DNA of 32,887 bases. Source: Bdellovibrionia bacterium (GTDB taxonomy: Bacteria; Bdellovibrionota; Bdellovibrionia; Bdellovibrionales; JAGQZY01). The translations under genes were made by a program, and so were the position numbers. Positions 8,960 to 24,711 of this stretch are shown here, in pieces (the first letter of the stretch is position 1; every line of letters begins with the position of its first letter). The stretch lies in contig JAUHWN010000030.1 in the NCBI GenBank assembly GCA_030424665.1, positions 1 to 32,887 on the forward strand, written 5' to 3'. The notes beneath the pieces were generated by a model. The model was given only the letters and a program-made list of their open reading frames with translations, made no database searches and had not been told where the DNA came from.

Positions 8960-10273
8960 ATGTCTCGAGCATCAAAAGAGTTTTTTGACAAAGTAAAGTC
9001 CAAAGAGGCTGTCATCGGAATTATCGGAATGGGCTATGTCGGCCTTCCACTCATGCTCCGATTTAATGAGGTTGGCTTCAAGGTCTTGGGTATCGATATC
9101 GACTCGGATAAGGTCAATAAACTAAATAAGGGCGAAAGTTATATTGCCCATATTGACGGTGAAGAAATACTCAAGTCGACAAAGACAGGTTTCGAGGCCA
9201 CCACAGACTTTTCAAGATCTAAAGAAGCTGATGCTCTCATTATCTGTGTACCTACTCCTCTCAACAAATATCGTGAACCGGACATCAGCTTCGTCACGAA
9301 AACGATGGATGCTCTAGCTCCTCACCTCCGTAATGGGCAAATGATTTCACTGGAATCGACAACCTACCCCGGAACGACCGAAGAAGAACTTCGTCCTCGC
9401 ATCGAGGAGCGTGGTTTTAAAATTGGAGAAGACATCTTTCTAGTTTACTCTCCTGAACGTGAGGACCCCGGTAATCCTAATTTCACAACTCGTACAATTC
9501 CAAAAGTTGTTGGTGGCAGTTGCCCAACCTGTAAAGAGATCGGTACCGCTATATACAGTACTGTAATAGATCATGTTGTCCCAGTTTCGAGCACAGAGAC
9601 AGCTGAAATGGTAAAACTTCTCGAGAATATTCATCGTGCAGTAAACATCGGCTTGGTTAACGAAATGAAAATTGTCGCTGATAGAATGGGAATAAATATT
9701 CACGAGGTAATTAAGGCCGCAGCAACCAAACCTTTTGGATTTACAGCCTATTACCCGGGCCCCGGACTCGGTGGGCATTGCATACCTATCGATCCATTTT
9801 ATCTGACGTGGAAAGCTCGCGAATACGGCCTTCACACTCGCTTTATTGAATTGGCTGGTGAAGTAAACACGAACATGCCCCATTGGGTTGTCGCGAAAAC
9901 TGTCGATGCTCTAAACGAACGCGGAAAAGCCCTTAAGGGAAGTCGTGTTCTCATGCTTGGAATCGCTTATAAGAAAAATGTCGATGATATGAGGGAGTCT
10001 CCTTCTGTCGAACTCATGGAAATCCTTCAAAGCAAAGGTGCCGAGGTTCACTATCATGACACTTACGTGCCTGTATTTCCTAAAATGAGAGAACATCACT
10101 TTAACCTTAGCTCTGTTGAATTGAGCTCGGAAACTTTAAATACTTATGACTGCGTCGTTCTCGCGACTGATCATGACAACTTTGATTATGATCTGATCAA
10201 GAACAACGCGAAGCTAATTATTGATACTCGTGGCCGATACCTTGAACACGAAGAGCACATTATCAAAGCCTAG
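8960..10273 (+). CDS. wbpA: UDP-GlcNAc 6-dehydrogenase-like nucleotide-sugar dehydrogenase (WbpA type)
   Basis: Cytoplasmic NAD-dependent enzyme of 437 residues that oxidises C6 of a UDP-sugar, most likely UDP-GlcNAc to UDP-GlcNAcA, the first step of the di-N-acetyl-hexuronate pathway. GMGYVGLP at about 23-30 is the dinucleotide-binding loop; [11 protein letters not shown] and YSPEREDPG are family blocks; [14 protein letters not shown] holds the catalytic Cys274; [15 protein letters not shown] is the UDP-binding C-terminal domain. It is followed after 8 nt by the wbpB-like gene, then directly by the wbpD-like gene, in the order known for this pathway, which favours GlcNAc over glucose as substrate. 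A GAGGAA site precedes the ATG. Specificity for the GlcNAc epimer is inferred from context. Confidence 0.92.
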
Positions 10274-10281
10274 GACTTTAA

Positions 10282-11346
10282 ATGAATTTAATTACACACG
10301 AACCGATAAAAGACCGAAAAATTAAATTAGCTCTGGTGGGAGCTGGACGAATTTCTGAAAAGCACTTTCAGGCGATTGAAAAACACAATGACAATTTAGA
10401 ACTGGTGGCAATTTGCGATAACAATCCCGAGGTTCTAAAAACTATGACGGCTGAAAAAAATGTCGAGGGCTTTTTAGGCCTCGACGAGATGCTAAAACGC
10501 AGTGATGCCGATGCCGTCGTCTTAACCACTCCCAGCGGGATTCACCCTAACCAAGCTATCCATGTTGCTCGTGCTGGCAAACATGTCATTTCTGAAAAAC
10601 CCATGGCAACACGTTGGGAGGATGGAAAAGAAATGGTCGCCGAATGCGATCGTAACGGTGTTCGACTTTTCGTTGTTAAGCAAAATCGGCACAATGCGAC
10701 CCTTCAAATGCTAAAAAGAGCAATTGATGAAAAGCGCTTTGGCCGAATCTATATGGTGAACGTTAACGTCTTTTGGACACGCCCCCAAGATTACTATGAT
10801 CAGGCCGACTGGCGTGGCACCTGGGAGTTCGACGGTGGAGCATTCATGAATCAGGCAAGTCATTACATCGATCTACTCGATTGGATGATTGGTCCTATTG
10901 AAAGCCTGCAAGCTTATACAACCACATTGGCGAGAAATATCGAAGTGGAAGATACAGGGGTTGCCTCCCTAAAATGGCGATCTGGTGCATTGGGATCGGT
11001 CAATGTCACTATGCTCACCTATCCAAAAAACTTTGAAGGTTCTCTCACGATTTTAGGCGAAAAGGGAACCGTTCGAATTGGCGGTGTTGCAGTTAACGAA
11101 ATTCAAAATTGGCAATTTGAAGATACCCAAGATTACGATAAGCAGGTCAAAGAAGCCAATTATGAAACAACCAGTGTTTATGGCTTCGGACACCCTGCCT
11201 ACTACGAAAACGTTATCCAAACACTTCGCGGCGAAGCAGAACCACTTACTTGCGGACGCGAAGGTCTGAAGTCGCTTGAAGTGCTTATAGGACTTTATCG
11301 TTCAGCTCGTGACGGTAAAAGAGTATCGCTTCCTCTTGATTACTAA
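10282..11346 (+). CDS. wbpB: UDP-GlcNAcA 3-dehydrogenase-like oxidoreductase (WbpB/WlbA, Gfo/Idh/MocA family)
   Basis: A 354-residue NAD-dependent oxidoreductase expected to oxidise C3 of UDP-N-acetylglucosaminuronate, giving the 3-keto sugar for transamination. The Rossmann loop LALVGAGRISEKH is at 17-28, the family EKPMA motif has Lys106, and a catalytic-region histidine lies in FMNQASHYIDLLDW at about 194. NRHNATLQMLKRAI and FWTRPQDYYDQADWRG are blocks I associate with WbpB/WlbA rather than with other Gfo/Idh enzymes. It is encoded between wbpA- and wbpD-like genes on the same strand. In the known pathway this enzyme works together with an aminotransferase (WbpE); no typical one is seen in this window. 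Confidence 0.9.
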   Translation: MNLITHEPIKDRKIKLALVGAGRISEKHFQAIEKHNDNLELVAICDNNPEVLKTMTAEKNVEGFLGLDEMLKRSDADAVVLTTPSGIHPNQAIHVARAGKHVISEKPMATRWEDGKEMVAECDRNGVRLFVVKQNRHNATLQMLKRAIDEKRFGRIYMVNVNVFWTRPQDYYDQADWRGTWEFDGGAFMNQASHYIDLLDWMIGPIESLQAYTTTLARNIEVEDTGVASLKWRSGALGSVNVTMLTYPKNFEGSLTILGEKGTVRIGGVAVNEIQNWQFEDTQDYDKQVKEANYETTSVYGFGHPAYYENVIQTLRGEAEPLTCGREGLKSLEVLIGLYRSARDGKRVSLPLDY

Positions 11347-11901
11347 ATGGGTGAAGAAATGATGATTCACGAATCTGCTAAAATTCATGAGACTGCGATT
11401 GTAGATGACGGTGCTAAGATTGGAGCCAACTCCAGAGTTTGGCACTGGGTCCACATATGTAGTGGTGCTCAAATAGGAGAAGGCTGTTCATTTGGTCAAA
11501 ATGTCTTCGTCGGTAATGACGTCAAAATCGGCAATAATGTTAAAGTTCAAAATAATGTTTCGATCTACGATTCTATTACTATTGAGGATGATGTTTTTTG
11601 CGGACCAAGTATGGTTTTTACTAACGTAATTAACCCCCGTTCGGCCATTATCCGTAAAGATGAATACTTAAGAACCCACGTAAAAAAGGGTGCTAGTATA
11701 GGTGCTAATGCTACAATCATATGTGGGAATACTATAGGTGAATATGCGTTTATAGCAGCGGGCGCCGTAATAACTAAGGATGTTCCTGCTCACGCCTTAA
11801 TGGCGGGAGTGCCGGCGAAGCAAATCGGATGGATGAACAAAGAGGGACATCGAGTAACTGACCCGAAAGAAATCGAACAGCTCAGTCAAGCTCACATTTA
11901 A
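11347..11901 (+). CDS. wbpD: UDP-3-amino-GlcNAcA N-acetyltransferase-like (WbpD/WlbB type)
   Basis: Left-handed beta-helix acyltransferase of 184 residues, probably a cytoplasmic trimer using acetyl-CoA to acetylate the 3-amino group of UDP-2-acetamido-3-amino-glucuronate. Hexapeptide repeats ([42 protein letters not shown]) run from about residue 25 to 160. The loop [17 protein letters not shown] and the C-terminal [14 protein letters not shown] are close to what I recall of WbpD. The ATG at 11347 directly follows the wbpB-like stop; ATGs at 11359 and 11362 are alternatives with a weak GAAGAA before them, so the first few residues are uncertain. It ends the plus-strand run and faces the seven-gene minus operon across 3 nt. 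Confidence 0.9.
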
Positions 11902-11904
11902 TCA

Positions 11905-12714
11905 TCATAAAACAATTTCTAGACCATTTTTTATCTTTATAAGACTCAGCTTTTTGCTCTTGAATTTCTTTAAATCCTTTGCATTAGGCCAACTGTAGTA
12001 TGATTTTTGGGGTATCTTTGATACCGAATAGCAAGTCCTTGTCTTCAAATAATCCATCAATAATTCTTTTCCCAAAGCATTGTTTCTTACAATATTAGAA
12101 AAGAGGTCTTTGCTATAGTCTATTGGGATTTCTTTTTGACTTAAAACTGGCCCCTTATCTAACTCGGGGGTTACTTCAAATAAGCTCGTCCCGATAAACT
12201 CTTCCTGGTTTTTCATAGAATGAAACTCAGCTGCAATACCTTTGTACGACGGCAATACAGATGAATGGACACACACTGTATTCTCTTTGGGAACCTTAAG
12301 TAGCTCTTTTGAAAATATTTGATTTATTCTTATCAGAAAGCGATCCGGTCTAAGGTCTCTAAATTTTTTTATCCATAAAGGTGAGCTAAAGTTATCAGAA
12401 TAGTAAATTGGAATTTTTCTTTCTTTTGCAATTTTAATTAAATTACTAACTTCAAAATTCTCACACTTAGATGCTTTACTAAAAGGATTCAACTGGAAAA
12501 GTCTAAAAAGTCCGTTGTAGAAAGCTAAAAACAACCAGTATTGAAATGCACATTTCTTTAAAAGAGCCAACGCCCCTTGGTTTTTCCCTTGTTTGTTCTT
12601 TGTAATACTTGTCGTTACACAAAGTGCCGAAACCTTTATATCAGAGTCACACATCACTCCGGAGAAAATCGTGTGAGAAGTTAGATCGTTATTTATAAAA
12701 ATTACGACTCTCAT
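11905..12714 (-). CDS. Formyltransferase-like protein with a substituted catalytic asparagine
   Basis: A 269-residue protein with the C-terminal half of the formyltransferase fold (as in ArnA, sugar N-formyltransferases and Fmt): HSSVLPSYKG, then GTSLFEVTPELDKGPVLSQKEIPI. In the family, the triad is Asn, His and Asp in N-x-H-x-S-L-L-P and the downstream D-x-G. Here His150 and Asp186 are present, but the asparagine position is Cys148 (ENTVCVHSS; codon TGT). The N-terminal 100 residues are divergent. I start it at the ATG at 12714, which overlaps the methyltransferase stop as ATGA; the track start is a TTG five codons earlier. Being last in an operon with a DegT-type aminotransferase, it could N-acylate an amino sugar. 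With the Asn lost, formyl transfer is not assured. Confidence 0.6.
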   Translation of the reverse strand: MRVVIFINNDLTSHTIFSGVMCDSDIKVSALCVTTSITKNKQGKNQGALALLKKCAFQYWLFLAFYNGLFRLFQLNPFSKASKCENFEVSNLIKIAKERKIPIYYSDNFSSPLWIKKFRDLRPDRFLIRINQIFSKELLKVPKENTVCVHSSVLPSYKGIAAEFHSMKNQEEFIGTSLFEVTPELDKGPVLSQKEIPIDYSKDLFSNIVRNNALGKELLMDYLKTRTCYSVSKIPQKSYYSWPNAKDLKKFKSKKLSLIKIKNGLEIVL

Positions 12715-13520
12715 ATTTTTCTCAACCAAAGAGTCACTTTTTCGTTAACATCATTCTTTTCAACCTCCACCACCGTTCTATCTACCCAGGACATAATTTC
12801 ATCAGCCTCTAAAACACTCAATTGTTTCGGGGATATGTTCACACTTACAACTTCCTTGACAGCTTTATAACTAGAGTTCCATAAAGCCAGTCCTGACTTA
12901 GTAGGTAAAAATCCCCATATAGGAACCATCAAATGAACTAGGAGAAAACCTAAACCTATGATATTTAAAACCTTGTATGCTGATCTAAGAAATGAAAAAA
13001 CTAACCCTCCAAACCCTTGAGGTTTTGGAAGAATCCAGAACCCTATCAACCCTCCTGATCGGGTTACTCTCAACAACTCTCTAAAAGCCTTCTGAGGTTC
13101 ATCAGAGTATGCAATTACTCCATAACTAAAAGTGACATCAAAACTATTGTCTCTAAATGGCAATGAACAGACATCTCCCTGTACAAAAATTGAGTTCGCT
13201 GGTGCTCGACTTTGAGCCTTTAATAAGGCACTTTCCGATAAATCTAAAAAACAGTAGGTTGTCGACTGAATATTTAATTTTTTTAAAACCTGACTATGAA
13301 CACCATCTCCGCAGCCAGCATCTAACACGAAGTTAGCCTGCTTTAAATCCGTTAGAGCCGCAGATAAAAATTCCTCACCTTGTTGCAACTTCAACAATGG
13401 GATTTCTTTGTCAGCTTCATCCCAATGACTGTCAAAGTTACTGGAATCTATGAAAGAGTACAGTCCCTCGCCAATCCTTCTTCTTGACCTGCTTGTATCA
13501 AATTTATCTCGAATATCCAT
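12711..13520 (-). CDS. Class I SAM-dependent methyltransferase
   Basis: A 269-residue protein with the SAM-binding motif VLDAGCGDGVHS at about 65-76, an acidic strand end at FLDLSE, a motif II-like DVTFSYGVIAYSDEP and a post-motif LLRVTRSGGLIGFW: the methyltransferase type 11 arrangement. After the Rossmann domain there is a hydrophobic stretch (IIGLGFLLVHLMVPIWGF), which may anchor it to the membrane. It is encoded between the DegT-type aminotransferase (5-nt gap) and the formyltransferase-like gene (ATGA overlap), so a sugar or lipid-linked glycan is the probable methyl acceptor. The target atom cannot be told. Confidence 0.8.
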   Translation of the reverse strand: MDIRDKFDTSRSRRRIGEGLYSFIDSSNFDSHWDEADKEIPLLKLQQGEEFLSAALTDLKQANFVLDAGCGDGVHSQVLKKLNIQSTTYCFLDLSESALLKAQSRAPANSIFVQGDVCSLPFRDNSFDVTFSYGVIAYSDEPQKAFRELLRVTRSGGLIGFWILPKPQGFGGLVFSFLRSAYKVLNIIGLGFLLVHLMVPIWGFLPTKSGLALWNSSYKAVKEVVSVNISPKQLSVLEADEIMSWVDRTVVEVEKNDVNEKVTLWLRKI

Positions 13521-13525
13521 GAAAC

Positions 13526-14764
13526 CTAACTACTCGCCCCATTCATAACATCGATCAATTTTTCACTGATTCTTGACATTTCTTCTTCTAAGTCAAAATC
13601 GAAAAATCTATTTTCAAAAAAAGTAAGAGGTAAGTTGAGTACTCTCTTGGAATAATCATGAGCAATCGGGCATGAATTATATCCCATAGACTTATAGGCA
13701 CTCAAATCAGAAATAGAATAGTCAACGATAATTCCAACCTCAGACTTGAATATCTCTCGTAACTCGAGTCTTGTCACGTCTCGCTCTTTCTCTCTTACGA
13801 GTACTGGGTAGTGACTCCATGTCGCGCCATCAACGTAACTCAGTTGTCTAAACCAGGTGTTATCATCAAGTGGCTTCATAAGATCAAAATATTTCTTAGC
13901 TATTTTTCTGCGGTTCTCAACCCTTTCGTCAAAACGCTCGAGTGAAGATTTCAAAATTGATTTCGAAGTTCTACTCAGGTGGTGGTCATAATCTCGTGGG
14001 AGATCTATTCGGTCTTCCGCAAAATATTGTGTTTCGGAGTCTAGGGATGAAGTATTATTTATAAGATAATCAACAAGTGAATAGATTCCTGGGTTAAATG
14101 CAATTTGACCCGCTACACTATATAGATATTCATATAGTCCATCAAAATTCGCTTTTAAAAACTTTCGATTAAAAAGAGTGACTTTGTCTGCAATAGCTTT
14201 GTCTCGAATTGACAAGATTCCAGCGTGAATTCCATTCACTAATTTGGAAATATTGGCCCCATAGATCGCTACATCACCATAATGCGTTACAACTTTCCCT
14301 GTAGAGTCTTTGCAAAAATAAGAATGCGCACAATCTTGAACGACAATAACTTCAGGAAACCTAGCTTTTACTTCCCTATATAATTCAGCAGTCTCCTCTG
14401 GATAACCAAAAAGATGAGTTGGTATAATCATGGCTGTTTCATTGTCGATCGCTTCAAGATAAGCTTCAGAGGCCGGCTGAAAAGAGTCCTCTGATGAATC
14501 TAAAAAAACAGGCGTGTTTCCACTCTTTACAATCGCATGAGCGACCACAACACATGAATAACTTGGAATAATAACTTTTTTACCTTCTAATTCCAAAGCA
14601 CAAAGAAGAGCATACAGTCCTGACCGCCCATACTTGTACAAGAAGTGATGATCTAACCCCGATTTCCTTTTTAGATACCCAAAAATTTCAAACTCTAAGT
14701 CAGCAATTTCAACGGGTGCTAAAATATCTGAAGGACGATAGTCCGGACTAAATCTTGGGTACAT
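13526..14764 (-). CDS. DegT/DnrJ/EryC1/StrS-type PLP aminotransferase, divergent
   Basis: A 412-residue fold-type I PLP enzyme, presumably aminating a keto nucleotide sugar. YKYGRSGLYALLCAL, VIIPSYSCVVVAHAIV and PVFLDSSEDSF give the N-terminal cofactor-binding part; VVQDCAHSY carries the ring-nitrogen aspartate (Asp144); YGANISKLVNG carries the expected Schiff-base lysine (Lys174). The lysine context differs from the usual S-F-H/F-x(2)-K-x(3)-G-E-G-G of sugar aminotransferases such as WbpE, and the protein is about 40 residues longer than those. It overlaps the preceding gene by 17 nt and has GAGGA at its ATG. It may supply the missing WbpE step for the wbpA-B-D genes, or make another amino sugar in its own operon. 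I cannot decide between them. Confidence 0.78.
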   Translation of the reverse strand: MYPRFSPDYRPSDILAPVEIADLEFEIFGYLKRKSGLDHHFLYKYGRSGLYALLCALELEGKKVIIPSYSCVVVAHAIVKSGNTPVFLDSSEDSFQPASEAYLEAIDNETAMIIPTHLFGYPEETAELYREVKARFPEVIVVQDCAHSYFCKDSTGKVVTHYGDVAIYGANISKLVNGIHAGILSIRDKAIADKVTLFNRKFLKANFDGLYEYLYSVAGQIAFNPGIYSLVDYLINNTSSLDSETQYFAEDRIDLPRDYDHHLSRTSKSILKSSLERFDERVENRRKIAKKYFDLMKPLDDNTWFRQLSYVDGATWSHYPVLVREKERDVTRLELREIFKSEVGIIVDYSISDLSAYKSMGYNSCPIAHDYSKRVLNLPLTFFENRFFDFDLEEEMSRISEKLIDVMNGASS

Positions 14765-16217
14765 TCCTCAAATATTTCCTTGAAAAGCTATTGGCAGATG
14801 CCATGTGCTCGTAAAATCCAGGGTGCAAGAGCGAATAGCCACCTGCCTCTTTAACAAATAGCTGTTCTGAACTTTTGTCGAAATTAATTTCAATTGAAGT
14901 CGGCACTTGTGACCCACTACCCATAACAAACCTCTTTAAAAGCCTCTTAAATAACCTATGCATAATTGGTAAAAAATAGAAAAGTGGCCCTAAAACACGT
15001 AATAAGATTGTAGTAAATGCATTAGGCAATTTTTGCTTTACATCAACTAAACTATATTTAAAAGAAAATCCATTTTTTCCAACTGCCTTAGCTTGGACCA
15101 TTCCCCGTGTAGCCCAATTACTTTTCTTAAAACCGGGAATAGAAATATCTTCAAAGAGATCCGACTGACCGATACGAATCCCCTCAACCACCCCATTTGA
15201 AAAAGAAACTAGCAGATTTAGACTAGAAGATCTAAAGCAATACAGGTTCGCATTATTGAAGTATTGATCACAATCCTCTATTTTTTCATTTTTAAAAGTA
15301 ACCTTTCCAGCTTTATATTGGCGATAGAAAAAACTCCAAGTCGTATAGATTGTTGCAAAGTTCCCTGAATCGACAGAAACAGGACTTAAAAGTCTAAGGG
15401 ATTTATATGCACTCTCAATCCATATCTGGGGAGTCGGAATAAATGAGGACGCCCCTAGGTAGAATATTGAGGTCCCCCTAGAACCGATATCACCTGCAAA
15501 ATTACCATTCTGCTGAAAAAAGAATGAACAAAACTCACCAGCGCTCTCCAGCTTTTCAACCCAGGTATCAGGAAGCTCTCTTACGGAGTTAGCCATCGCG
15601 AAATAATGCAGAAGAAGGGTCTGGTAGCCAGGGTCAGCTCCATCATACTCTGGAAACCATCCCTCTTTATCCATAATATTAAACAATGGTTCAACAACAG
15701 ATACGTCTCCAGACTCCAACCACATAGCAAGATACGCAGTAGCTAGATGATTAGAAATAACTCCGTGTGTTTCTGGTGTCCTTTTCAAAAACCCAACCGA
15801 CTCTTGGATGACTTCTTGAATCTCATTCTCTGAGTCTTGTGTTAAGAAATTTGAGTGCTTGTTTTTTAAGTAAGAGAAATAAAAAGCAACCATTGCCGTA
15901 ACTGCAAAGGAAGACTCATAGGGGTAGGCTTCTTCAAAACTCCCATTACTCCTTTGAAGCTTTTTAGTACCCTTGATTACATGCCCCACGAGTTTTAGAA
16001 TTTCCTCCTTAGGTAGTCCACTCAACTCGTTAGTATCTAATAGCCCAACCAAACTTGCCTGCCAAGAGCCGTTCGAAAAATCCTTTACTTTCCAGGCCCA
16101 GTAATCCCTATCACAGTATCCCAGAGTTTTAGAATCTTCTCTGAGGTCAACCTGATTTAAAAACCTTTGATGGCTGTATCGTAAGATTGAAGGTAAGTCT
16201 TCTATGAATAAGCTCAT
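14748..16217 (-). CDS. Uncharacterised protein, probable alpha/alpha-toroid fold, polysaccharide-locus associated
   Basis: No confident function. The 489-residue product starts as ATGA overlapping the deacetylase-like stop. The first 330 residues are helical with repeated aromatic or glycine-rich turns (CDRDYWAWKVKDFSNGSWQ, SNGSFEEAYPYESSFAV, KEGWFPEYDGADPGYQTLL, GDIGSRGTSIFYLG), the pattern expected of an alpha/alpha barrel such as polysaccharide lyases, glycosidases or epimerases. The last 150 residues look beta-rich with one hydrophobic patch (LLRVLGPLFYFLPIMHRLF). No signal peptide is visible, so it is probably cytoplasmic or membrane-peripheral. It sits between the NodB-like and aminotransferase genes. 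It might be a heparinase-like relative or a uronyl-epimerase-like enzyme, but the usual heparinase II/III C-terminal motifs were not found. Confidence 0.6.
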   Translation of the reverse strand: MSLFIEDLPSILRYSHQRFLNQVDLREDSKTLGYCDRDYWAWKVKDFSNGSWQASLVGLLDTNELSGLPKEEILKLVGHVIKGTKKLQRSNGSFEEAYPYESSFAVTAMVAFYFSYLKNKHSNFLTQDSENEIQEVIQESVGFLKRTPETHGVISNHLATAYLAMWLESGDVSVVEPLFNIMDKEGWFPEYDGADPGYQTLLLHYFAMANSVRELPDTWVEKLESAGEFCSFFFQQNGNFAGDIGSRGTSIFYLGASSFIPTPQIWIESAYKSLRLLSPVSVDSGNFATIYTTWSFFYRQYKAGKVTFKNEKIEDCDQYFNNANLYCFRSSSLNLLVSFSNGVVEGIRIGQSDLFEDISIPGFKKSNWATRGMVQAKAVGKNGFSFKYSLVDVKQKLPNAFTTILLRVLGPLFYFLPIMHRLFKRLLKRFVMGSGSQVPTSIEINFDKSSEQLFVKEAGGYSLLHPGFYEHMASANSFSRKYLRNVPKI

Positions 16218-17275
16218 AAGTACCGATCTCTGAAATCGTTTAAGTCAAATGATACAGCTCCTTCACACTTTAACCATGTGAGAAACTCTTGGTAAGTTCT
16301 TTCCCATCTGTAACTTGGCGAGGCCGCACGGTCATGCCAATCTACACTAACGACTCCCCCCATAGAGATTAGAGGTCGAAACTTCTTTTTCAACAGTTTT
16401 AATGCCTGAGAATGACTCAGGGATAGCTCATCAAATAAAGTTCCATCCATTGCGACTAATGGGATTTCTTGAATTCTTCGTGATTTAGTCGGAAAGTAGG
16501 GTCCCAACATACCTCCCCTGAAAGCAACGCGGTCGTTCCATCCTAGTGATGAATCAATTTGAATCCCTGCATCAGCTAATACATCCAGGTCATTCACATC
16601 TGGGACATTTAACCAATGTTGTCTATTAATCACAATATTACAATTGACTATAGTCTCAAGATCACTTTTTTCTTTTTGAAATTTATTTTCAACAATAGAG
16701 TTTAAACTCCCATGAGAACCTATAGTCGAATTTGACTCCTTCAATATTTTAATTACTTTCCCGAACAGTTCGGAACGAATGTCATAAGATGGGTCTATAA
16801 AATACTCTCGCAAACGTTGCTTAAGGGAGTCAGATCTCACTGGGTTAGGTATAAAGACGACTGGATTTCCGTCATCACCGCAAAAATCGTTACTTATCTC
16901 TAAAATGTTTGAAATCGAGTCTAAATAATCTCCGCCAATTTGAGAAAATTTCCGATATCCTACTAAACGTTTTAACACCATTCGCTTCGTAGGATATATG
17001 TAATCTATATCATGGGATAACATAACTCTGAGGCCTTCGATCTTCTTCTTTAGTCCAACTGACTGACACAACTCATCAATCTTTTGCTCTACCATCGGAA
17101 CCTCAAAAGACTTGCCAAGAGAATACCCTAAACCTTTTGATTTAATATCTGTATTAAACATGTCGAATAGACTTTCTCCTAATTCGATATTTGAATTAGC
17201 AAGCTCATCTACCTGGGCAAGATCACAATTGTATTTTAATAAAATATGGTTTTTGAGAAATTCTTCTGCGCTCAT
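16214..17275 (-). CDS. Polysaccharide deacetylase-like (NodB homology) protein
   Basis: A 353-residue protein with the NodB pattern: VMLSHDIDYIYP (His88, Asp89, Asp91), IGSHGSLNSI (metal-ligand His188), RQHWLNVPD, then DSSLGWNDRVAFRGG and a final VDWHDRAASP. It belongs to the sub-group with an extra N-terminal domain of about 80 residues often found in surface-glycan loci. The usual second histidine of H-x(3)-H is Asn192, so the metal site may be incomplete, although I recall relatives with a similar HGS/HPS form. There is no signal peptide, so it probably acts in the cytoplasm on a sugar nucleotide or lipid-linked intermediate. ATG overlaps the asparagine-synthase stop by one base (TAATG) and its end overlaps the toroid-like gene. 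Fold firm, substrate unknown. Confidence 0.75.
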   Translation of the reverse strand: MSAEEFLKNHILLKYNCDLAQVDELANSNIELGESLFDMFNTDIKSKGLGYSLGKSFEVPMVEQKIDELCQSVGLKKKIEGLRVMLSHDIDYIYPTKRMVLKRLVGYRKFSQIGGDYLDSISNILEISNDFCGDDGNPVVFIPNPVRSDSLKQRLREYFIDPSYDIRSELFGKVIKILKESNSTIGSHGSLNSIVENKFQKEKSDLETIVNCNIVINRQHWLNVPDVNDLDVLADAGIQIDSSLGWNDRVAFRGGMLGPYFPTKSRRIQEIPLVAMDGTLFDELSLSHSQALKLLKKKFRPLISMGGVVSVDWHDRAASPSYRWERTYQEFLTWLKCEGAVSFDLNDFRDRYL

Positions 17276-19062
17276 TACAAAAACCTCAATTCAATACCCC
17301 TCGATCGGCTCCAAGAATCTAAACACAGAGCAATCCAAATCCGATGGGCATAAACTTCGTCCAATGCAAAAGGTCTTTTCTTGGCGCTAAAATCTTTAAA
17401 AAAGCTAACGAATTTCTTTTTAGAGTCTTCTCCCTTAAAAATAGTTGAGGATTTAAGTCGTTCCTCAACAAAGTCACTTAGTTCATGCTTAAACCATAGG
17501 CGAAGAGGAGTAGGAAATCCGCGCTTTTTAGCTTGAAATATTTCTTCGGGTAGATAATTTTTAGCAACATCAATAAGCATATGCTTTAATCTACCTTTCG
17601 CCATTAGTTCTCGTGAATCTATTCTATCTACATAGTCCACAATTTCTTGACTCCACAATGGCATACGTGTCTCTAGCGACCATTTCATGCTAATATGGTC
17701 TTCAATGGTCAACAAGCCAGGCAGGTAAATTTCTTTATAGTAACTTTTTAGGTCGGCAACCTTGTCGAACGAGGCCGAAGAAAACAGCAGTTCATTATCT
17801 GTATCCTTAAAGTCATTTAAGCTTGGAGCAAAAGCCAATTTACCTGTCTTTAGATATTTCAAAACCGAATAAAAGAACCATATGGATGACTTAGAATTTA
17901 AACTCAAAAGTACTCTAAGTTTATCCAACAAACCAAATTGAGGCGAAAAAAAGTATGCCGACAAGAATAAAGGATATCCAAAGAACAACTCATCTCCGCC
18001 ATGTCCCGATAAAACTACCTTGAAAGACTTCGAAACCTCACTGGCAACCACATACTGGGATAAGCTCCCCATTCCCATCCTCGGTTGATCTAGTTGATTT
18101 ACCAAGTCATCAAAGTACTTTATAAAGTGATCTGGTCTAATTTCGACGGGCACGAGTTCAATATTTGCTTTTTTTGAGACTACTTCTGCGAGAGGCAGTT
18201 CAGAGTAATAAGGGTCTTCAGTATCAAAAAAACCCGTAAATGCAGTAATAGTTTGACCTAGCTCCTGCCTTGCCAAAACAGAAACAAGTGTCGAATCAAT
18301 ACCACCGGACATATATGTTGAAATTGGAACATCGCTTACCAAATGAGATCTTACTGAATCTAAAATGACATCTTCTAGACTACTTTCTTTTTTCTCCTTT
18401 GGTTTGTATTTAATTTTACCTTGAGAGGTTCTAATTATTTTACTTTTATCTATTTTAAACTTTACCCACCCACCCAGGGGAAGGGCCTTGATATTTTTAA
18501 AAAAAGTACACTCTGATCCGTAATTTTCAAACTCGACATAACTTTTAATGGTTGTCTGATCTAATTCAGTCTTATCCTCTGCATCCAAGTAAGATAAAAT
18601 AAGTTTAATTTCAGATGCAAAAATTAACTTTTTTTCATCGTGAAAGAAGTAGAGTGGCTTTATTCCGAGGGTATCTCGAAACAACATTAATTCAGACGTC
18701 TCGTTATAAAAAAATGAACCAGCATACATTCCATGGCATTTATTCAGAAAATCTTCTTTTTCGCTCAGGAGGCCATTAAAGAGTACCTGAGAATCTGAAG
18801 TCGCTTGATGCTCTATATCTTTATAGTTATATATTTCACCATTAAAAACGAGCGACCCCGCCTCAGACTCCATAGGCTGATTAGCGTCTTCCGAAAGATC
18901 AATGATGGCCAACCGTGTGTGTCCTAGAACTAATTTTCCACCATCAATTTTAGTAACACCTCTAGAGTCCGGACCCCGATGTGATATAAGGTCAAGACGC
19001 TTTAAAACATCTTCTTCAGACAATTGGTTTTGGGATGAGAAATATCCAAATACGCCACACAC
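17275..19062 (-). CDS. asnB: Asparagine synthase (glutamine-hydrolysing) family amidotransferase
   Basis: A 595-residue two-domain enzyme. The N-terminal class II glutaminase has the nucleophile Cys2 (MCGVFGYF), SHRGPDSRG, HTRLAIIDLS and FNGEIYNY; the C-terminal synthetase has the ATP loop STYMSGGIDSTLVS (SGGIDS at 252-257) and SGHGGDELFFGYP. The requirement for cysteine as the second residue fixes the GTG start at 19062, which overlaps the GT2 stop as TAGTG. In polysaccharide loci such proteins (for example WbpS in P. aeruginosa) are thought to amidate the carboxyl group of a hexuronic acid, and wbpA-type uronate synthesis is nearby, so uronamide formation is the most likely role. Free asparagine synthesis cannot be excluded from sequence. 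Confidence 0.88.
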   Translation of the reverse strand: MCGVFGYFSSQNQLSEEDVLKRLDLISHRGPDSRGVTKIDGGKLVLGHTRLAIIDLSEDANQPMESEAGSLVFNGEIYNYKDIEHQATSDSQVLFNGLLSEKEDFLNKCHGMYAGSFFYNETSELMLFRDTLGIKPLYFFHDEKKLIFASEIKLILSYLDAEDKTELDQTTIKSYVEFENYGSECTFFKNIKALPLGGWVKFKIDKSKIIRTSQGKIKYKPKEKKESSLEDVILDSVRSHLVSDVPISTYMSGGIDSTLVSVLARQELGQTITAFTGFFDTEDPYYSELPLAEVVSKKANIELVPVEIRPDHFIKYFDDLVNQLDQPRMGMGSLSQYVVASEVSKSFKVVLSGHGGDELFFGYPLFLSAYFFSPQFGLLDKLRVLLSLNSKSSIWFFYSVLKYLKTGKLAFAPSLNDFKDTDNELLFSSASFDKVADLKSYYKEIYLPGLLTIEDHISMKWSLETRMPLWSQEIVDYVDRIDSRELMAKGRLKHMLIDVAKNYLPEEIFQAKKRGFPTPLRLWFKHELSDFVEERLKSSTIFKGEDSKKKFVSFFKDFSAKKRPFALDEVYAHRIWIALCLDSWSRSRGIELRFL

Positions 19063-20132
19063 TAAACGTCTCGTCTATGTTGATTCTCAAGAACTCTCAC
19101 AATGTGCTTCAAGACCTCTTCTTGCTGCATTTTTAAAATTTGCAAGGTCGCTAAGGAAAAGAAAGTCTGTATCGAAAGTATCGTACCTAAACCTGCAATA
19201 AAAAAAGTATGTGGACTTTGATTGAATGAGCTCGACAAACCGATCCAAAGTTTTCTCCAAAAACCCTCATCTGTCTCTGGCCAAAAATTAAATACAGAAG
19301 ATCCTATAACAACGTACTCATAGATACTCACTAAAAACAAAAGAGCAACCAAATACTTAAACAACCTAGTTGGTTTAATGAGCAAACCATAAAGTAGATG
19401 ATTTTTAGCTGCACCCAACACCTTTAGATTGGTCTTTCTTCTCGGGCCGTCTTCCTTTTTCCAAACCAAGTCTCCTGGTACTTCGACAATTTTGCAACCT
19501 AGAATAGCCGCCTTACGTAAGACCTCGAGATGAAGTTCTTTACCTTCTTCGAAGAGGGGGAGCTCTCTAATTAACCCTCCTCGATACCCTCGAACAACAC
19601 ATGTTACAGTAGAAATCTTCTGAGAGAAAAAGCCAGTCAGTAACCAATTGGCAAATTTAGAAAGCAACAATCGATTAAAGGGAACATTTTGAGCTGTACC
19701 ACCTTTCATGTAAGGGCTAACTACAACAATGTCTGTATTGGGAGAATTACTAAAAGCCTCAAGAATTCTATCAATGTGGTAGACCTCATAGGTAAGGTCG
19801 GCATCTAAAGTTATTACAATCCGACCTCGGGAGAGCTTATAACCTACTTTTAATGCAGCGCCTCTGCCCTTGTTGAACTCGAAACTATGTATTCTAAGCT
19901 GAGTATGCTCTAAAGCTAGCTTTTCTAATATCTCTTTAGTGCCATCAGTACTGCCATCATTCACCACCAAAAGCTCGTAAGTAACTCCTGGGTGCATATC
20001 CTCTAAATGACTTTTAATTCGGTGTAAGGACTTCTCGATATTATTCGATTCATTAAAACAAGGAACCAATATAGTAAGTCCTAAACCTTCAGTTACCTTT
20101 AATGTAGAGTCATTTATTGCTGTACTTTCCAT
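19062..20132 (-). CDS. Family 2 glycosyltransferase with two C-terminal membrane helices
   Basis: GT-A fold enzyme of about 356 residues resembling dolichyl- or undecaprenyl-phosphate glycosyltransferases. ILVPCFNESNNI and LLVVNDGSTDGTKEIL bind the nucleotide, and TLDADLTYEVYHI is the metal-binding D-x-D. After residue 260 come two hydrophobic segments (YLVALLFLVSIYEYVVIG and FFIAGLGTILSIQTFFSL) that anchor it in the membrane. It is first in the seven-gene minus-strand operon, so it may start or prime the glycan that the downstream enzymes modify. The track starts at a TTG (20141); the ATG at 20132 is more likely, though neither has a good ribosome binding site. An N-terminal extension of about 17 residues precedes the first strand. 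Confidence 0.85.
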   Translation of the reverse strand: MESTAINDSTLKVTEGLGLTILVPCFNESNNIEKSLHRIKSHLEDMHPGVTYELLVVNDGSTDGTKEILEKLALEHTQLRIHSFEFNKGRGAALKVGYKLSRGRIVITLDADLTYEVYHIDRILEAFSNSPNTDIVVVSPYMKGGTAQNVPFNRLLLSKFANWLLTGFFSQKISTVTCVVRGYRGGLIRELPLFEEGKELHLEVLRKAAILGCKIVEVPGDLVWKKEDGPRRKTNLKVLGAAKNHLLYGLLIKPTRLFKYLVALLFLVSIYEYVVIGSSVFNFWPETDEGFWRKLWIGLSSSFNQSPHTFFIAGLGTILSIQTFFSLATLQILKMQQEEVLKHIVRVLENQHRRDV

Positions 20133-20141
20133 TTTCAACAA

Positions 20142-20226: not shown

Positions 20227-20943
20227 ATGAATCCAAACTCAGAATACTCGATTGATAGAGATCTGGAAAAGTGGAAAGCATATGCAAAGGAGATCCATAG
20301 CCGAAATATCGTAAAATCAGGAAGCGATGAAACCTTCTATACGTTCGCCCAATCCTCTGCTGAACGAGGTAGTCATAGCTGGATCGCAAACCTTCCGCTA
20401 AATAGAGACAAAGTCTTAGAAATTGGTGCTGGAGGGGGAGAACATATTGAGTTTGAAAAGGGCAAAATGAACCTTAAGAACTACACGGCCCTCGATATTG
20501 ACAAAAATTTCTTGAACATTATTAGTCAGCGCTACCCAGATGTGGACTTAGTAGAGTCCAAAGCAGATAAGACCCCCTTTGAGGACTCTACCTTTACTAC
20601 GATAATTGCTCACGGCGTTCTAGAGCATATCTCAAGCCTAGATAGCACACTCCAAGAAGTATCGAGAATATTGAAAGATGACGGTAAATTTGTAGTATTA
20701 GTGCCAGCAAATGGAAATTTCACAATAAATCTATTTAAACTTTTGGTGACTTACCCTAGCCTTAAAATTCGAGGTATCAAACGACCGTCTTATATTTGGC
20801 ATTTCGAAAACGCTAATTCTTTGACCCGAATTCAGGTCTACCTTGAAAAGAACTTTTTAATAGAGAAAACGGTTAGCCTCCCTTTTAAAGCACTACCTAG
20901 ATTTCTTTCTCCATTGATTGGCTATGTTTGTTCAAAAAAATGA
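20227..20943 (+). CDS. Class I SAM-dependent methyltransferase
   Basis: A 238-residue protein with motif I VLEIGAGGGEH (about 63-73), an acidic strand end ALDIDKNF, motif II-like TIIAHGVLEHISS and post-motif ILKDDGKFVVLVP, typical of the methyltransferase type 11/12 group that modifies sugars or lipids. A patch near the C-terminus is basic and hydrophobic (NLFKLLVTYPSLKIRGIKRP). It is first in a four-gene plus-strand operon, and its end overlaps the next gene. The operon continues with three membrane proteins, so the acceptor may be a membrane-bound glycan or lipid. The acceptor cannot be determined from sequence. Confidence 0.8.
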   Translation: MNPNSEYSIDRDLEKWKAYAKEIHSRNIVKSGSDETFYTFAQSSAERGSHSWIANLPLNRDKVLEIGAGGGEHIEFEKGKMNLKNYTALDIDKNFLNIISQRYPDVDLVESKADKTPFEDSTFTTIIAHGVLEHISSLDSTLQEVSRILKDDGKFVVLVPANGNFTINLFKLLVTYPSLKIRGIKRPSYIWHFENANSLTRIQVYLEKNFLIEKTVSLPFKALPRFLSPLIGYVCSKK

Positions 20944-21818
20944 TAAAATTTCATAGACCAACCATCAAAATTAATACTGCGATTCATTTTTTTATTCATC
21001 TGCTAATTTTAGCTCTTGGTATTGGATTATATGGACTTAGATTCGACGTGGTCAAAATCAGTACTTTACAATGGATTTTATTGATCCTTACCTCATCTAC
21101 TTCGATTGTACTAACAAGTTCATTAAGATTAAGTACTAAGAGAGTGCTGGTCATTTTTTTTCTAAGTTTCTTAGTAGAAGTTGCGATTCTCGATACTACC
21201 TTTCAAAGAAGAATACTTTTGCTATCGTTTTGCTTGCCTTTAATTTCATTTTTCAGGTCCAAAATCTGGAAGGCATATAAAAAAATCCCCAATCAGTTTA
21301 CTCCGATAAAACTAATAGTATTGGGGAATATCACGACTTTTATTTTTTTAGTTCATCTCCCCCCTTTCTACGGGGGCATCGCAGGATGGGAGGCAGCATA
21401 CAAAGACCCGCTAGTTTACCTAAGTGGAATAAAAATATACAACAAAGAAGGGGATTCAGTCTGGTATTCGAATGGCATTACCTCACCCTTAAATTTTCCA
21501 TATAGACTCTATTTTGAGCACAGATATGACAGTAAAAAACTAGAAACTTATATCAAGCTTCTGTTTGATATATACAAGAGGTCCTACAAACATCTTAAGT
21601 CCGGATTCTTTCCATCTCAATATTTGCTTAAAGAGTTTGCCTACCCCGGCCATAATCCTTACTCAATCGAACCTTATAACAGGTTCCCCCCTAGTCAGGT
21701 GACCTTAATGACCTTTGAAACGATCGGGTTTGATCTTAAATCTAAAAAAAAGAAAGTACACAACATTGATTGGAAATACGACCTCAGCACTAGATCCTGG
21801 GAAAAGAGGTTCAATTGA
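20928..21818 (+). CDS. Uncharacterised membrane protein next to the HTTM-like gene
   Basis: Not recognised. The first 150 residues contain about four to five hydrophobic segments (for example FFIHLLILALGIGLYGL and WILLILTSSTSIVLTS). The remaining 145 residues form a soluble, aromatic-rich region (WYSNGITSPLNFPYRLYFEH, PYSIEPYNRFPPSQVTL, WKYDLSTRSWEK), probably exposed on the periplasmic side. The gene overlaps the methyltransferase; an ATG at 20940, forming ATGA with its stop, is an alternative start four codons in. Its own end overlaps the HTTM-like gene by TTGA. The close coupling suggests a two-subunit membrane complex, but this is inference only. Confidence 0.6.
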   Translation: MFKKMIKFHRPTIKINTAIHFFIHLLILALGIGLYGLRFDVVKISTLQWILLILTSSTSIVLTSSLRLSTKRVLVIFFLSFLVEVAILDTTFQRRILLLSFCLPLISFFRSKIWKAYKKIPNQFTPIKLIVLGNITTFIFLVHLPPFYGGIAGWEAAYKDPLVYLSGIKIYNKEGDSVWYSNGITSPLNFPYRLYFEHRYDSKKLETYIKLLFDIYKRSYKHLKSGFFPSQYLLKEFAYPGHNPYSIEPYNRFPPSQVTLMTFETIGFDLKSKKKKVHNIDWKYDLSTRSWEKRFN

Positions 21819-22774
21819 TTTCCTCACTTAAAACTTATCTATTCGAAGTAAAATCAATATTTTCTCCGATTTCCGAGCTTAGACTTCATTACATCAGAAT
21901 TTTTATTTGCCTGTTCTTTGTTTACAAAATACTCAGTAGAGACTTTTCAGTATTTGAATTATTCGAAAAATCCAATTTGAGTCTCTACCCAAAAGATATG
22001 TATCCAATGGATCGAGCTTTTTATCTGTTTACTCCAGATTTTCTAACTGATTTGGTGACTTTTCATTGGATTCACTGGTTTGTACCTATCAAAAACGAAG
22101 CATGGATTAACTTTGCACAATATGCCACGGTCATATTTCTGATTTTATTTGCGATTGTTGGACCAGGCCCTAGAAGATCTTTTGGAGTAATTTCGATCAG
22201 TCTTATTTTTTACCTTTGGGGGTTTTTGTGGAAAAATGGCCAAGACATAGACGCAATTTTTATCCCCATGCAAATTGTACTTCTGCTCGCAGTTTCCCAC
22301 CCTAAGAATACTAGTCTCTTGATAACTTCGAATTATTCTAGAGAGTCAAAAGATGGAGGAGTTATCATTGGCTCGATTGTAATAATCTTTGTATGTTATT
22401 ACTTTGGTTCGGGACTGAATAAACTCATAGATGTACCTGTCCATCGCTGGTTCTCCTATGAGCTTTCGCAAGAAATCTTAAGAGCTAGAGTTAGGTCTGA
22501 CTTGGGATATTTCGTTCAGGCTCCTAAGTTTTTCTCATTCATGACTACCGTCCCCTGGACAGATTCCATTTTAGTACCTATTACTTATCTTTCTCATTTG
22601 TCGATGCCACTAATACTTGTCCACAGAAAGTGGGTTGTAAAAGCATCTGTATTTTACATTTCCTTCCACTTGATGACTTGGAGCATAGGAATTCTGTTTT
22701 TTGGAATGATATTAATGTGGCTTGTATTCCTACCTATTGATCGATTAGTCTTCGGGAAGAAATTTGTAATATAA
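21815..22774 (+). CDS. HTTM-like membrane protein (vitamin K gamma-carboxylase-related family)
   Basis: A 319-residue protein with about six to eight hydrophobic segments resembling the HTTM (horizontally transferred transmembrane) domain shared with vitamin K-dependent gamma-glutamyl carboxylase. The first membrane segment follows a basic arginine (YIRIFICLFFVYKIL), and CYYFGSGLNKLIDVPVHRW matches the region where the carboxylase has its catalytic lysine (Lys203 here). The end, SFHLMTWSIGILFFGMILMWLVFLPID, is like the last HTTM helix pair. The TTG start overlaps the preceding stop as TTGA and has AAGAGG seven nt before. No carboxylase C-terminal domain is present, so the reaction is unknown. 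A DoxX-like or other four-helix membrane oxidoreductase relative is an alternative. Confidence 0.55.
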   Translation: MISSLKTYLFEVKSIFSPISELRLHYIRIFICLFFVYKILSRDFSVFELFEKSNLSLYPKDMYPMDRAFYLFTPDFLTDLVTFHWIHWFVPIKNEAWINFAQYATVIFLILFAIVGPGPRRSFGVISISLIFYLWGFLWKNGQDIDAIFIPMQIVLLLAVSHPKNTSLLITSNYSRESKDGGVIIGSIVIIFVCYYFGSGLNKLIDVPVHRWFSYELSQEILRARVRSDLGYFVQAPKFFSFMTTVPWTDSILVPITYLSHLSMPLILVHRKWVVKASVFYISFHLMTWSIGILFFGMILMWLVFLPIDRLVFGKKFVI

Positions 22775-24711
22775 TGAATGCAATAAGTAGTAAATTGAAA
22801 ACATATTCTAATTTATCTTATTTTCTTATTTTGGTTCCGATTAGTTACGGGATCTACCAAAGATTAAACCAGCTTTTGGATTCTATCGCTCTCTCTGGAT
22901 TTTCACCAATTGCCTATGTCTATCGATCAATTCATGCTGAAAATTTTTTACGCGACATAGAAGCTGGTGTCCAACTTTTCGACAAATCTTTCATAATGAA
23001 GCTCTACGTTTTGGCTTTTGAATATTTTGATATCACACCCGAAGTTTTAATTTTTATTTTTATCTTTCTAGAATTGATCGTTTCATCTCTTGTCATAATT
23101 TTTCTTTGCAGGAGTGTTGCTAAAACCTCATCCCCTCTTTTCGCAGTTACATGCACACTCTTCTTCGTTTTCTCAAATATAAGAAATTTAGACTTAGCTC
23201 GTTTTGGATTTCTTTATATCGGTCAATTTTATATTTTTGCTGATTCTGCAAGATTATTAGCATTTGCCTTTTTATTTAATAACAGAATCAAATCAAGCTA
23301 CATATTTGCAGTAATTTCATTCGCAATCCATCCATCGATAGGATTAATCAGCCTCCTATGCATTAGCTCTACGCATCTTCTTTTTTCTATTAAGGATAGA
23401 ACTTTAATATCCTTTTCTATTATTAATGTACTAACTTTAGCTTCATGTGCCCTTTGGACCTTCTTCAATTTTGATAAGTCTTCCCTCGGTGGGTCTTCCA
23501 TTCCTACAGACTCCTGGGTTGCACTTTCTAGACTATTTAATTTTCATTGGTATCCGGTAGATATGGGAATGTTTTCAAAGTATCATTACGAACGCTTCTT
23601 CCCCATTTGTACCCTATTGATGATATCGTGCTTGATTTGGAAGAAGAGTTTGCTTTCACCTCGAGTTAAACAAACTATCTTCTCAATTTTTTGTATCACT
23701 ATTCCGCTTTCGATTTTTGGCGTTATTTTCTCTGAACTTTCAACAAGTCCGTTTCTACATAAACTCTCACTCCATAGAAGTTCCGATTTAACAATTACGT
23801 TTGCGGCCCTATTCATTTTATCTTTTGTAATGGAAAAAGACTCCAGTAGGCATTTGATTGTAAAGCTTATTTGTTTCTCGGGACTTGTTCAGGCCTTTTT
23901 CTCACCTAGTTCTCCACCGATTTTATATCCTGGATTAATTTTGATTTATGAAATCTTGAGAAATAAAGAACGACCATCTACTTATGAAATAAAAGTTAAA
24001 TTAATGATACTTTGTGCTTTAGCATCATTTGTTTTGATTTATCTTGTTATATACGGATTTCAAAATATTTTTAGCCCGGCTTACTCTGGTAATATCTACA
24101 TCGCTGGCGTTTTGCTAGGCTTGACCTCTATATATAGCTTAAGGCCTACGATCTTCGTTAACTTGAGAATTATCGTGGTTTTGGTTGCAATGATGAGCTC
24201 TATCAATTGGATAAAATCATCTGAGCTAATTGATTCTTATCTAAAAAAAGCAGGAGATTATAGAGCGACCCAGGTATGGGCAAAGGAAAATACCCCTTTC
24301 AACTCACTCTTCGCGCCAGACCCTACTATCTTTTATGGCTGGAGAGACTTCTCGCATAGAAGCTCTTTTGGAAATATTCGAGAATGGTTACATACTAATT
24401 GGTTATATAATTCAAATTTTGGACTCTACAAAGAAGGACTTCGAAGAGCGAAGGCTCTTGGTATTGATTACACGGAATTTTTAGGTAGATCACCTTCTAA
24501 TCAGGGCTATTTTGAGATGCTACCAATTTTAAGAAAACGATTCTATAATTTTGATTCAAAACTTCATTGCGATTTAAAAAACGAGTTCAATATACAGTAT
24601 TTTGTATTCGATAAAGAACATCTAAATGACTCCAAGCCTCCAGTAAAGATCTTTGAAAATAGGCATTTCTTCATAGTTGAATCGAATAAATTTGTTAAGT
24701 GTTCGAACTAG
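22774..24711 (+). CDS. Large polytopic membrane protein, GT-C glycosyltransferase-like topology
   Basis: A 645-residue protein with roughly eleven or more hydrophobic segments to about residue 490, then a soluble C-terminal region of about 150 residues (VWAKENTPFNSLFAPDPT, GWRDFSHRSSFGNIREWLHTNW). The layout, the lumenal-type loop after the first helix, and ENTP followed by a W/R-rich block resemble GT-C-like membrane proteins of glycan loci, but I saw no clear D-D/E-x-Y donor motif in the first loop. The GFLYIGQFYIFADSARLLAF and FAIHPSIGLISLL helices resemble an uncharacterised membrane family. It is last in the HTTM operon (ATG overlaps the HTTM-like stop by one base) and meets the minus-strand methyltransferase tail to tail with a 4-nt overlap. 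It may be a periplasmic-face sugar transferase. Confidence 0.55.
   Translation: MNAISSKLKTYSNLSYFLILVPISYGIYQRLNQLLDSIALSGFSPIAYVYRSIHAENFLRDIEAGVQLFDKSFIMKLYVLAFEYFDITPEVLIFIFIFLELIVSSLVIIFLCRSVAKTSSPLFAVTCTLFFVFSNIRNLDLARFGFLYIGQFYIFADSARLLAFAFLFNNRIKSSYIFAVISFAIHPSIGLISLLCISSTHLLFSIKDRTLISFSIINVLTLASCALWTFFNFDKSSLGGSSIPTDSWVALSRLFNFHWYPVDMGMFSKYHYERFFPICTLLMISCLIWKKSLLSPRVKQTIFSIFCITIPLSIFGVIFSELSTSPFLHKLSLHRSSDLTITFAALFILSFVMEKDSSRHLIVKLICFSGLVQAFFSPSSPPILYPGLILIYEILRNKERPSTYEIKVKLMILCALASFVLIYLVIYGFQNIFSPAYSGNIYIAGVLLGLTSIYSLRPTIFVNLRIIVVLVAMMSSINWIKSSELIDSYLKKAGDYRATQVWAKENTPFNSLFAPDPTIFYGWRDFSHRSSFGNIREWLHTNWLYNSNFGLYKEGLRRAKALGIDYTEFLGRSPSNQGYFEMLPILRKRFYNFDSKLHCDLKNEFNIQYFVFDKEHLNDSKPPVKIFENRHFFIVESNKFVKCSN

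Follow-up and report, generated by a model that had tools for sequence, protein, structure and literature searches.

A seven-gene operon with a recurring core in a Bdellovibrionia surface-polysaccharide locus encodes an undescribed protein family with a predicted polysaccharide-lyase-like fold

The Wbp/Vim system of Porphyromonas gingivalis includes the amidotransferase WbpS, the putative deacetylase VimE, and VimA, and its proposed product is a 2-N-seryl, 3-N-acetylglucuronamide (PMC7468200); uronamide formation by WbpS enzymes of the asparagine-synthase (asnB) type is established in O antigens (PMC3684757). The Bordetella wbm loci, with the variable region wbmO–wbmZ, direct a diacetamido-uronic acid O antigen and contain serotype-specific genes (PMC3849452). 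Toroid-type proteins are known from lipid-linked glycan assembly in haloarchaea, i.e., the glucuronic acid C5-epimerase Agl32 (PMC13308652) and AglQ, a proposed isomerase acting on hexuronic acid (PMC3827465), while DSepi1 combines a toroid with a β-sandwich. Here, we analyze a seven-gene operon of a Bdellovibrionia bacterium (assembly GCA_030424665.1) in which a GT2 glycosyltransferase, an asnB-type amidotransferase, a deacetylase of the CE4/NodB type, a toroid protein, a DegT aminotransferase, a methyltransferase and a formyltransferase-like protein are encoded in this order (Table 1). The window, i.e., the stretch of DNA analyzed, is an entire contig of 32,887 bases (JAUHWN010000030.1; C253) from a fragmented 4.4-Mb genome. 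We propose, with moderate confidence, that the operon is a recurrent cassette for glycan tailoring, gained by horizontal transfer, that supplies the surface polysaccharide of the locus with a heavily modified uronamide residue.

The seven open reading frames lie on the minus strand and run from 20141 down to 11905, the first coordinate being set by an upstream TTG of the GT2 gene, whose ATG start gives 20132. In transcription order the junctions are overlaps of 1, 1, 4 and 17 nucleotides (nt), a gap of 5 nt and an overlap of 19 nt, the last of which shrinks to 4 nt if the formyltransferase-like gene begins at an internal ATG. These coordinates are in agreement with the original prediction, in which seven genes on one strand overlapped by 1–19 nt with a largest gap of 5 nt, and Pfam supports its domain calls for the GT2, asparagine-synthase, DegT, methyltransferase and formyltransferase genes.

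The block is not confined to the window. In a genome of the same phylum and another class (G272, locus L128), the genes for GT2, asnB, deacetylase, toroid and DegT are conserved in order and strand, and a GNAT gene comes next; the identities to the window proteins are 43, 42, 36, 31 and 32%, respectively. The neighborhood of asnB, deacetylase, toroid and DegT genes that had been proposed as the test of a functional unit is thus found as a same-order block, and a scattering of these genes in relatives without a shared neighborhood was not seen. Partial versions also occur. In G360, GT2-asnB-deacetylase and toroid-DegT-formyltransferase are found on two separate contigs, and G100 (L065; also L016) has GT2-deacetylase-asnB-PF03706-GNAT-toroid. 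In G043 (L114), GT2-asnB-deacetylase-FemAB-GNAT lies beside wbpA/B/D and a toroid gene stands at the end of a separate contig, which is compatible with one broken operon. Among Chloroflexi, L028 reads GT2-asnB-toroid-CE4-methyltransferase-DegT-methyltransferase, and toroid, CE4 and DegT genes are found together in L027, L029, L032 and L034. The Chloroflexi CE4 enzymes belong to PF01522 and display no significant similarity to the VimE-type deacetylase, so the same partners recur with two CE4 subfamilies.

Profile searches of 369 genomes of the phylum found the deacetylase in 13, the toroid in 26 and both in 7, where 0.9 would be expected (one-sided Fisher p = 4.9e-6). The p value serves only as a guide, given the relatedness of the genomes, and not all of the seven carry both genes on a single contig. 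Toroid relatives are encoded at 433 places in a scan of genome contigs, and the 80 named loci retained from these, which span bacteria and archaea, were used for locus statistics. An asnB gene is present in all six toroid loci with a VimE-type deacetylase and in 26 of the other 74 (p = 0.003), and a formyltransferase gene in two of the six and in none of the 74 (p = 0.005). The recurrence of the block elsewhere places the coupling of these genes above chance, and together with the co-occurrence in 7 of 369 genomes it identifies the operon, on genomic evidence, as a recurring module.

The GC content of the operon is 0.377, compared with 0.42–0.44 in contigs sampled elsewhere in the genome, and neither the deacetylase nor the DegT gene was found in G075, the sole other genome of the genus that was examined; the low GC content and these absences point to horizontal acquisition of the cassette. 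The same two observations would fit an ordinary O-antigen locus, i.e., generic polysaccharide genes, common in such loci, that horizontal transfer has gathered and that form no functional unit beyond their operon packing. However, the five-gene order is repeated in another class of the phylum, the same parts are found in Chloroflexi with a dissimilar CE4 enzyme, and a single DegT clade is tied to the toroid (see below); we regard this explanation as very improbable.

The unusual component of the cassette is the toroid protein, which represents a widespread undescribed protein family. It has no match in Pfam, NCBIfam or PDB sequences, and a profile of 75 relatives did not match the lyases in the PDB. 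An AlphaFold2 model computed from the alignment of these 75 sequences, with a mean predicted local distance difference test (pLDDT) score of 89 and a predicted template-modeling score of 0.92, displays an α/α-toroid followed by a β-sandwich, in line with the earlier description of the protein as toroid-like and without a known family. The top Foldseek matches include chondroitin AC lyase, PL33 lyases, hyaluronate lyases and the alginate lyase Atu3025, with E values of 1e-5 to 1e-3 against lyases of the PL8, PL33 and PL15 types; the model has the two-domain architecture of these enzymes, and the sequence does not belong to their families. Assignment to heparinase II/III was rejected, as Pfam gave no support. 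Residues N156, E190, D195, Y198 and R247 are identical in all 75 aligned sequences and position 157 is histidine in 66, and hydropathy reveals no signal-peptide-like N-terminus. Although shaped like enzymes that cut sugar chains, the protein apparently serves the making of surface sugars within the cell. In the class of the window, 11 of 144 genomes carry a toroid gene, frequently adjoining asnB.

Abstraction of the C5 proton is common to lyases and C5-epimerases, which makes a C5-proton enzyme the favored guess for the toroid, and the model suggests that it acts through such chemistry on a uronic acid or a uronamide. A more far-reaching and rather unlikely version is that the family consists of cytoplasmic lyase-fold C5-epimerases or dehydratases that serve biosynthesis, act on nucleotide- or lipid-linked uronates or uronamides, and make the substrate for a dedicated DegT enzyme, giving a new type of amino-uronamide. 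If the toroid is such an epimerase or dehydratase, lyase folds would be used in the cytoplasm of many phyla to build surface glycans, and a predictable sugar could be assigned to a group of polysaccharide loci. The toroid could instead hydrolyze sugars or serve as a scaffold without catalytic activity, the remainder of the cassette performing ordinary uronamide tailoring. Foldseek also returns GH154, an AGE-family epimerase and the thioester-domain toroids of complement and macroglobulin proteins, and the C-terminus of the window toroid is shorter than that of the family; on the other hand, the invariant Asn, Glu, Asp, Tyr and Arg in 75 diverse relatives argue for catalysis, and the lyases align at length across both the toroid and the β-sandwich. 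We consider a hydrolase or scaffold doubtful. An unannotated family of more than 430 members is here tied to a defined genetic context of uronamide formation, N-deacetylation, amination and acylation, which makes its function testable.

Toroid genes also occur in other settings. A paralogue, about 30% identical, at G000:C156:4360-7881 (L022) adjoins asnB downstream of a GT2 gene, and this C156-type toroid–asnB pair, conserved in the same-genus genome G075 (C9; L023), is apparently the native version. A second recurrent context is found in mostly alphaproteobacterial loci (L035, L037, L038, L039, L041, L043, L046 and L048), where asnB, a protein of about 720 residues that in part matches WbpB, and often methyltransferases precede the toroid. 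In cyanobacterial and betaproteobacterial loci (L054 and L090) a radical SAM/SPASM gene lies immediately 3′ of the toroid gene, and both loci contain a VimE-type deacetylase and a FemAB-like GNAT.

The deacetylase has no match in Pfam, and a search of PDB sequences yielded nothing usable. Among six relatives His88, Asp89, Asp91, His188, Arg218, His220, Asp277 and His314 are invariant, within them the motifs SHDxD and IGxH, and the top Foldseek PDB matches of a low-confidence model (pLDDT 63) are CE4 enzymes including ArnD (8t0j). The NodB fold and the metal-binding and catalytic motifs of CE4 enzymes are thus both recognized, which, with the match to VimE, supports the earlier NodB-like call. 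Hydropathy reveals no signal-peptide-like N-terminus. ArnD is another cytoplasmic CE4 enzyme. The suggestion that a cytoplasmic deacetylase has no precedent in such pathways is not supported, as VimE, the nearest family model, has a published, if proposed, place in the Wbp/Vim pathway (PMC7468200).

The DegT enzyme carries its pyridoxal phosphate lysine in an NISK motif and shares a long insertion with its counterparts in L028 and L029. In a phylogenetic tree, eight toroid-adjacent DegTs form one group (support 100/99) separate from WbpE and other DegTs; since the branch of the window DegT is long and the DegTs were sampled starting from toroid loci, the tree establishes the clade and not its exclusive association with toroids. 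The genes that follow DegT vary, i.e., GNAT in L128, L027 and L032, formyltransferase in L130, and methyltransferases in L028, L029 and L034, while the window has a methyltransferase gene as well as a formyltransferase-like one; this variability fits decoration of a new amine. The window methyltransferase has full-length relatives adjoining toroid-type DegTs in the Chloroflexi loci L028 (35%) and L029 (30%).

At the start of the operon, the GT2 protein is 48% and 52% identical to the GT2s of the related operons L065 and L114, respectively, and has C-terminal hydrophobic segments at residues 253–284 and 313–331 (hydropathy); by sequence, polyprenyl phosphate is the likely acceptor of the sugar that it transfers. 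The amidotransferase has a Cys immediately after the initiator residue and scores 334 bits with TIGR01536 and 231 bits with TIGR03108, for which the cut-off is 817.

Table 1 Features of the cassette and of the adjoining supply genes in the window
Feature	Coordinates	Strand	Basis
wbpA-like UDP-sugar 6-dehydrogenase	8960..10273	+	PF03721; TIGR03026 446 bits
wbpB-like Gfo/Idh/MocA oxidoreductase	10282..11346	+	PF01408, PF02894
wbpD-like hexapeptide N-acetyltransferase	11347..11901	+	Hexapep 4.8e-21
Formyltransferase-like protein	11905..12729	-	PF00551 (Formyl_trans_N) 1.1e-12
SAM-dependent methyltransferase	12711..13520	-	PF08241 (Methyltransf_11) 2e-22
DegT-fold PLP aminotransferase, toroid-associated clade	13526..14764	-	PF01041 7e-32
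α/α-toroid + β-sandwich protein, polysaccharide-lyase-like fold	14748..16217	-	AlphaFold model + Foldseek
CE4/NodB-like deacetylase, VimE-related	16214..17275	-	NF053580 VimE 8.6e-18, 64 bits; CE4 motifs
Class II glutamine amidotransferase, asparagine-synthase family, WbpS-like	17275..19062	-	PF00733 5.6e-61; GATase_7 4.3e-25
GT2 glycosyltransferase	19062..20141	-	PF00535 1.9e-25; ArnC/DPM/GtrB-like
PLP, pyridoxal phosphate; SAM, S-adenosylmethionine; UDP, uridine diphosphate

Tail-to-tail with the operon lie convergent wbpA-, wbpB- and wbpD-like genes, of which the first is a probable source of substrate. The wbpB-like protein is 69% and 51% identical to the products of the wbpB-position genes of L116 and L114, respectively, and the wbpD-like protein is 67% and 66% identical to those of the corresponding wbpD-position genes. 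The fourth member, wbpE, is located on contig C220; its product is 59% identical to a wbp-linked WbpE and groups with WbpE in the tree. WbpA, WbpB, WbpE and WbpD are hence all encoded, and with three of the genes adjoining the operon and the fourth on C220 the genome probably makes UDP-GlcNAc(3NAc)A. A role of the cassette DegT as the missing WbpE was rejected, given the gene on C220 and the grouping of the DegT elsewhere, as was the assignment of L114:9004-10089 to WbpE, which encodes a UDP-GlcNAc 2-epimerase-like protein.

From this gene content we infer the reactions, their order and their substrate as follows. WbpA/B/E/D would provide UDP-GlcNAc(3NAc)A, the carboxylate of which would be converted to the amide by the asnB enzyme. 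The VimE-type CE4 enzyme would remove an N-acetyl group, the lyase-fold toroid would epimerize the uronate or uronamide at C5 or catalyze an elimination, in either case via the C5 proton, and the DegT enzyme would add an amine. The last two genes, encoding the methyltransferase and the formyltransferase-like protein, would decorate the product, and the GT2 would load the sugar onto undecaprenyl phosphate or a growing lipid-linked glycan.

Several points weigh against this reading. VimE, the only family match of the deacetylase, is reached at 64 bits with an equivalog cut-off of 440, i.e., the enzyme is related but not equivalent to VimE, and the operon encodes no VimA-like aminoacyl transferase, nor did the genome match one divergent query, the FemAB-like GNAT of L065, which is a weak test. 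The Foldseek TM-scores of the toroid against lyases are modest (0.40–0.45, query-normalized), and many toroid genes are not accompanied by a deacetylase or asnB gene, so the family is not bound to one sugar. DegT enzymes require a ketone substrate, and no gene of the cassette is an obvious source of one. Finally, in the formyltransferase-like protein the catalytic Asn is replaced by Cys (VCVHSS), with His and Asp retained in the alignment; it thereby departs from the Asn-x-His/Asp pattern of 10-formyl-tetrahydrofolate formyltransferases, which relatives in L090, L094 and L130 follow with respect to the Asn. This replacement makes N-formylation doubtful, and the window protein may not formylate. 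The combined glycan-modification module of the original prediction accordingly stands as one recurring unit (L128, L028) and is in doubt with respect to N-acylation.

The replaced Asn also bears on an Arn-like logic, in which an amino sugar formed by DegT would be N-formylated by the formyltransferase and passed to undecaprenyl phosphate by an ArnC-like GT2, a transfer that the CE4 enzyme, as an ArnD-like deformylase, would make irreversible; asnB and the toroid would be accessories. The Arn models are indeed touched by the GT2 (ArnC, 52.7 bits), the DegT (ArnB, 57.7 bits) and the formyltransferase-like protein (ArnA, its nearest NCBIfam model, 66 bits), and ArnD is among the Foldseek matches of the CE4 model. 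However, all these scores are about one-tenth of the cut-offs (529–777 for ArnA, ArnB and ArnC) and place none of the proteins in the Arn families, the CE4 enzyme matches VimE and none of the Arn models including ArnD, and L065 and L114 retain GT2, deacetylase and asnB in operons where DegT and formyltransferase were not seen. We regard the Arn-like scheme as improbable and retain the uronamide-tailoring cassette as the preferred reading.

The remainder of the window is in keeping with a surface-polysaccharide locus, encoding a Wzx-like protein and group 1 glycosyltransferases in addition to the wbpA-wbpB-wbpD-like genes. Acetamidino genes of the wbuX/hisH/hisF type occur twice, at 3325-4524 and 7469-8856 (+) and at 25539-26744 (-) and 29800-31192 (+), and a third wbuX homologue is found on contig C45 (L125); the two sets and the third homologue suggest more than one acetamidino sugar. 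Adjoining the operon, three divergent genes at 20928-24711 (+) have no Pfam matches; at least two of their products (319 and 645 residues) span the membrane several times as judged by eye, and the three are candidates for a membrane glycosyltransferase or polymerase. A 984-residue protein (26707-29661, -), hydrophobic by eye in its first half and without a Pfam match, is possibly a GT-C type transferase that could use the polyprenyl-phosphate sugar from the GT2. A search of a plasmid collection gave a single weak, unannotated match, and a literature search on the cassette yielded only the Wbp/Vim paper and papers on uronamides.

Compared with the Arn pathway for 4-amino-4-deoxy-L-arabinose, the window shares a DegT aminotransferase, a CE4 enzyme, a gene of the N-formyltransferase type and a GT2 like that which acts on undecaprenyl phosphate, but asnB and the toroid have no Arn counterparts and the supply genes are of the Wbp type. 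The tailoring chemistry of the Bordetella wbm loci may resemble that of the cassette. With the toroid-fold uronate enzymes (PL8, PL33 and PL15 lyases, DSepi1, Agl32 and AglQ) the window protein has the α/α-toroid in common, and with the lyases and DSepi1 also the β-sandwich, whereas sequence similarity to lyases or epimerases in the PDB is not detectable and the published description of Agl32 gives it a helical domain alone. AglQ was rejected as a homologue of the toroid, its fusion to green fluorescent protein being only 44 kDa and thus too short (PMC3827465), and is retained as an analogy. The window also resembles the Wbp/Vim system of P. gingivalis (WbpABED, WbpS, VimE and VimA; PMC7468200), with which it shares the Wbp supply genes, an asnB-type amidotransferase and a putative CE4-type deacetylase nearest to VimE, and to which it adds a distinct DegT, the lyase-fold toroid and genes for a methyltransferase and a formyltransferase-like protein. 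By this analogy, the simplest reading is that the window pathway would be a cousin of Wbp/Vim in which the free amine and the ring are modified differently; in most parts the module resembles known uronamide-tailoring pathways, to which it adds one undescribed protein family.

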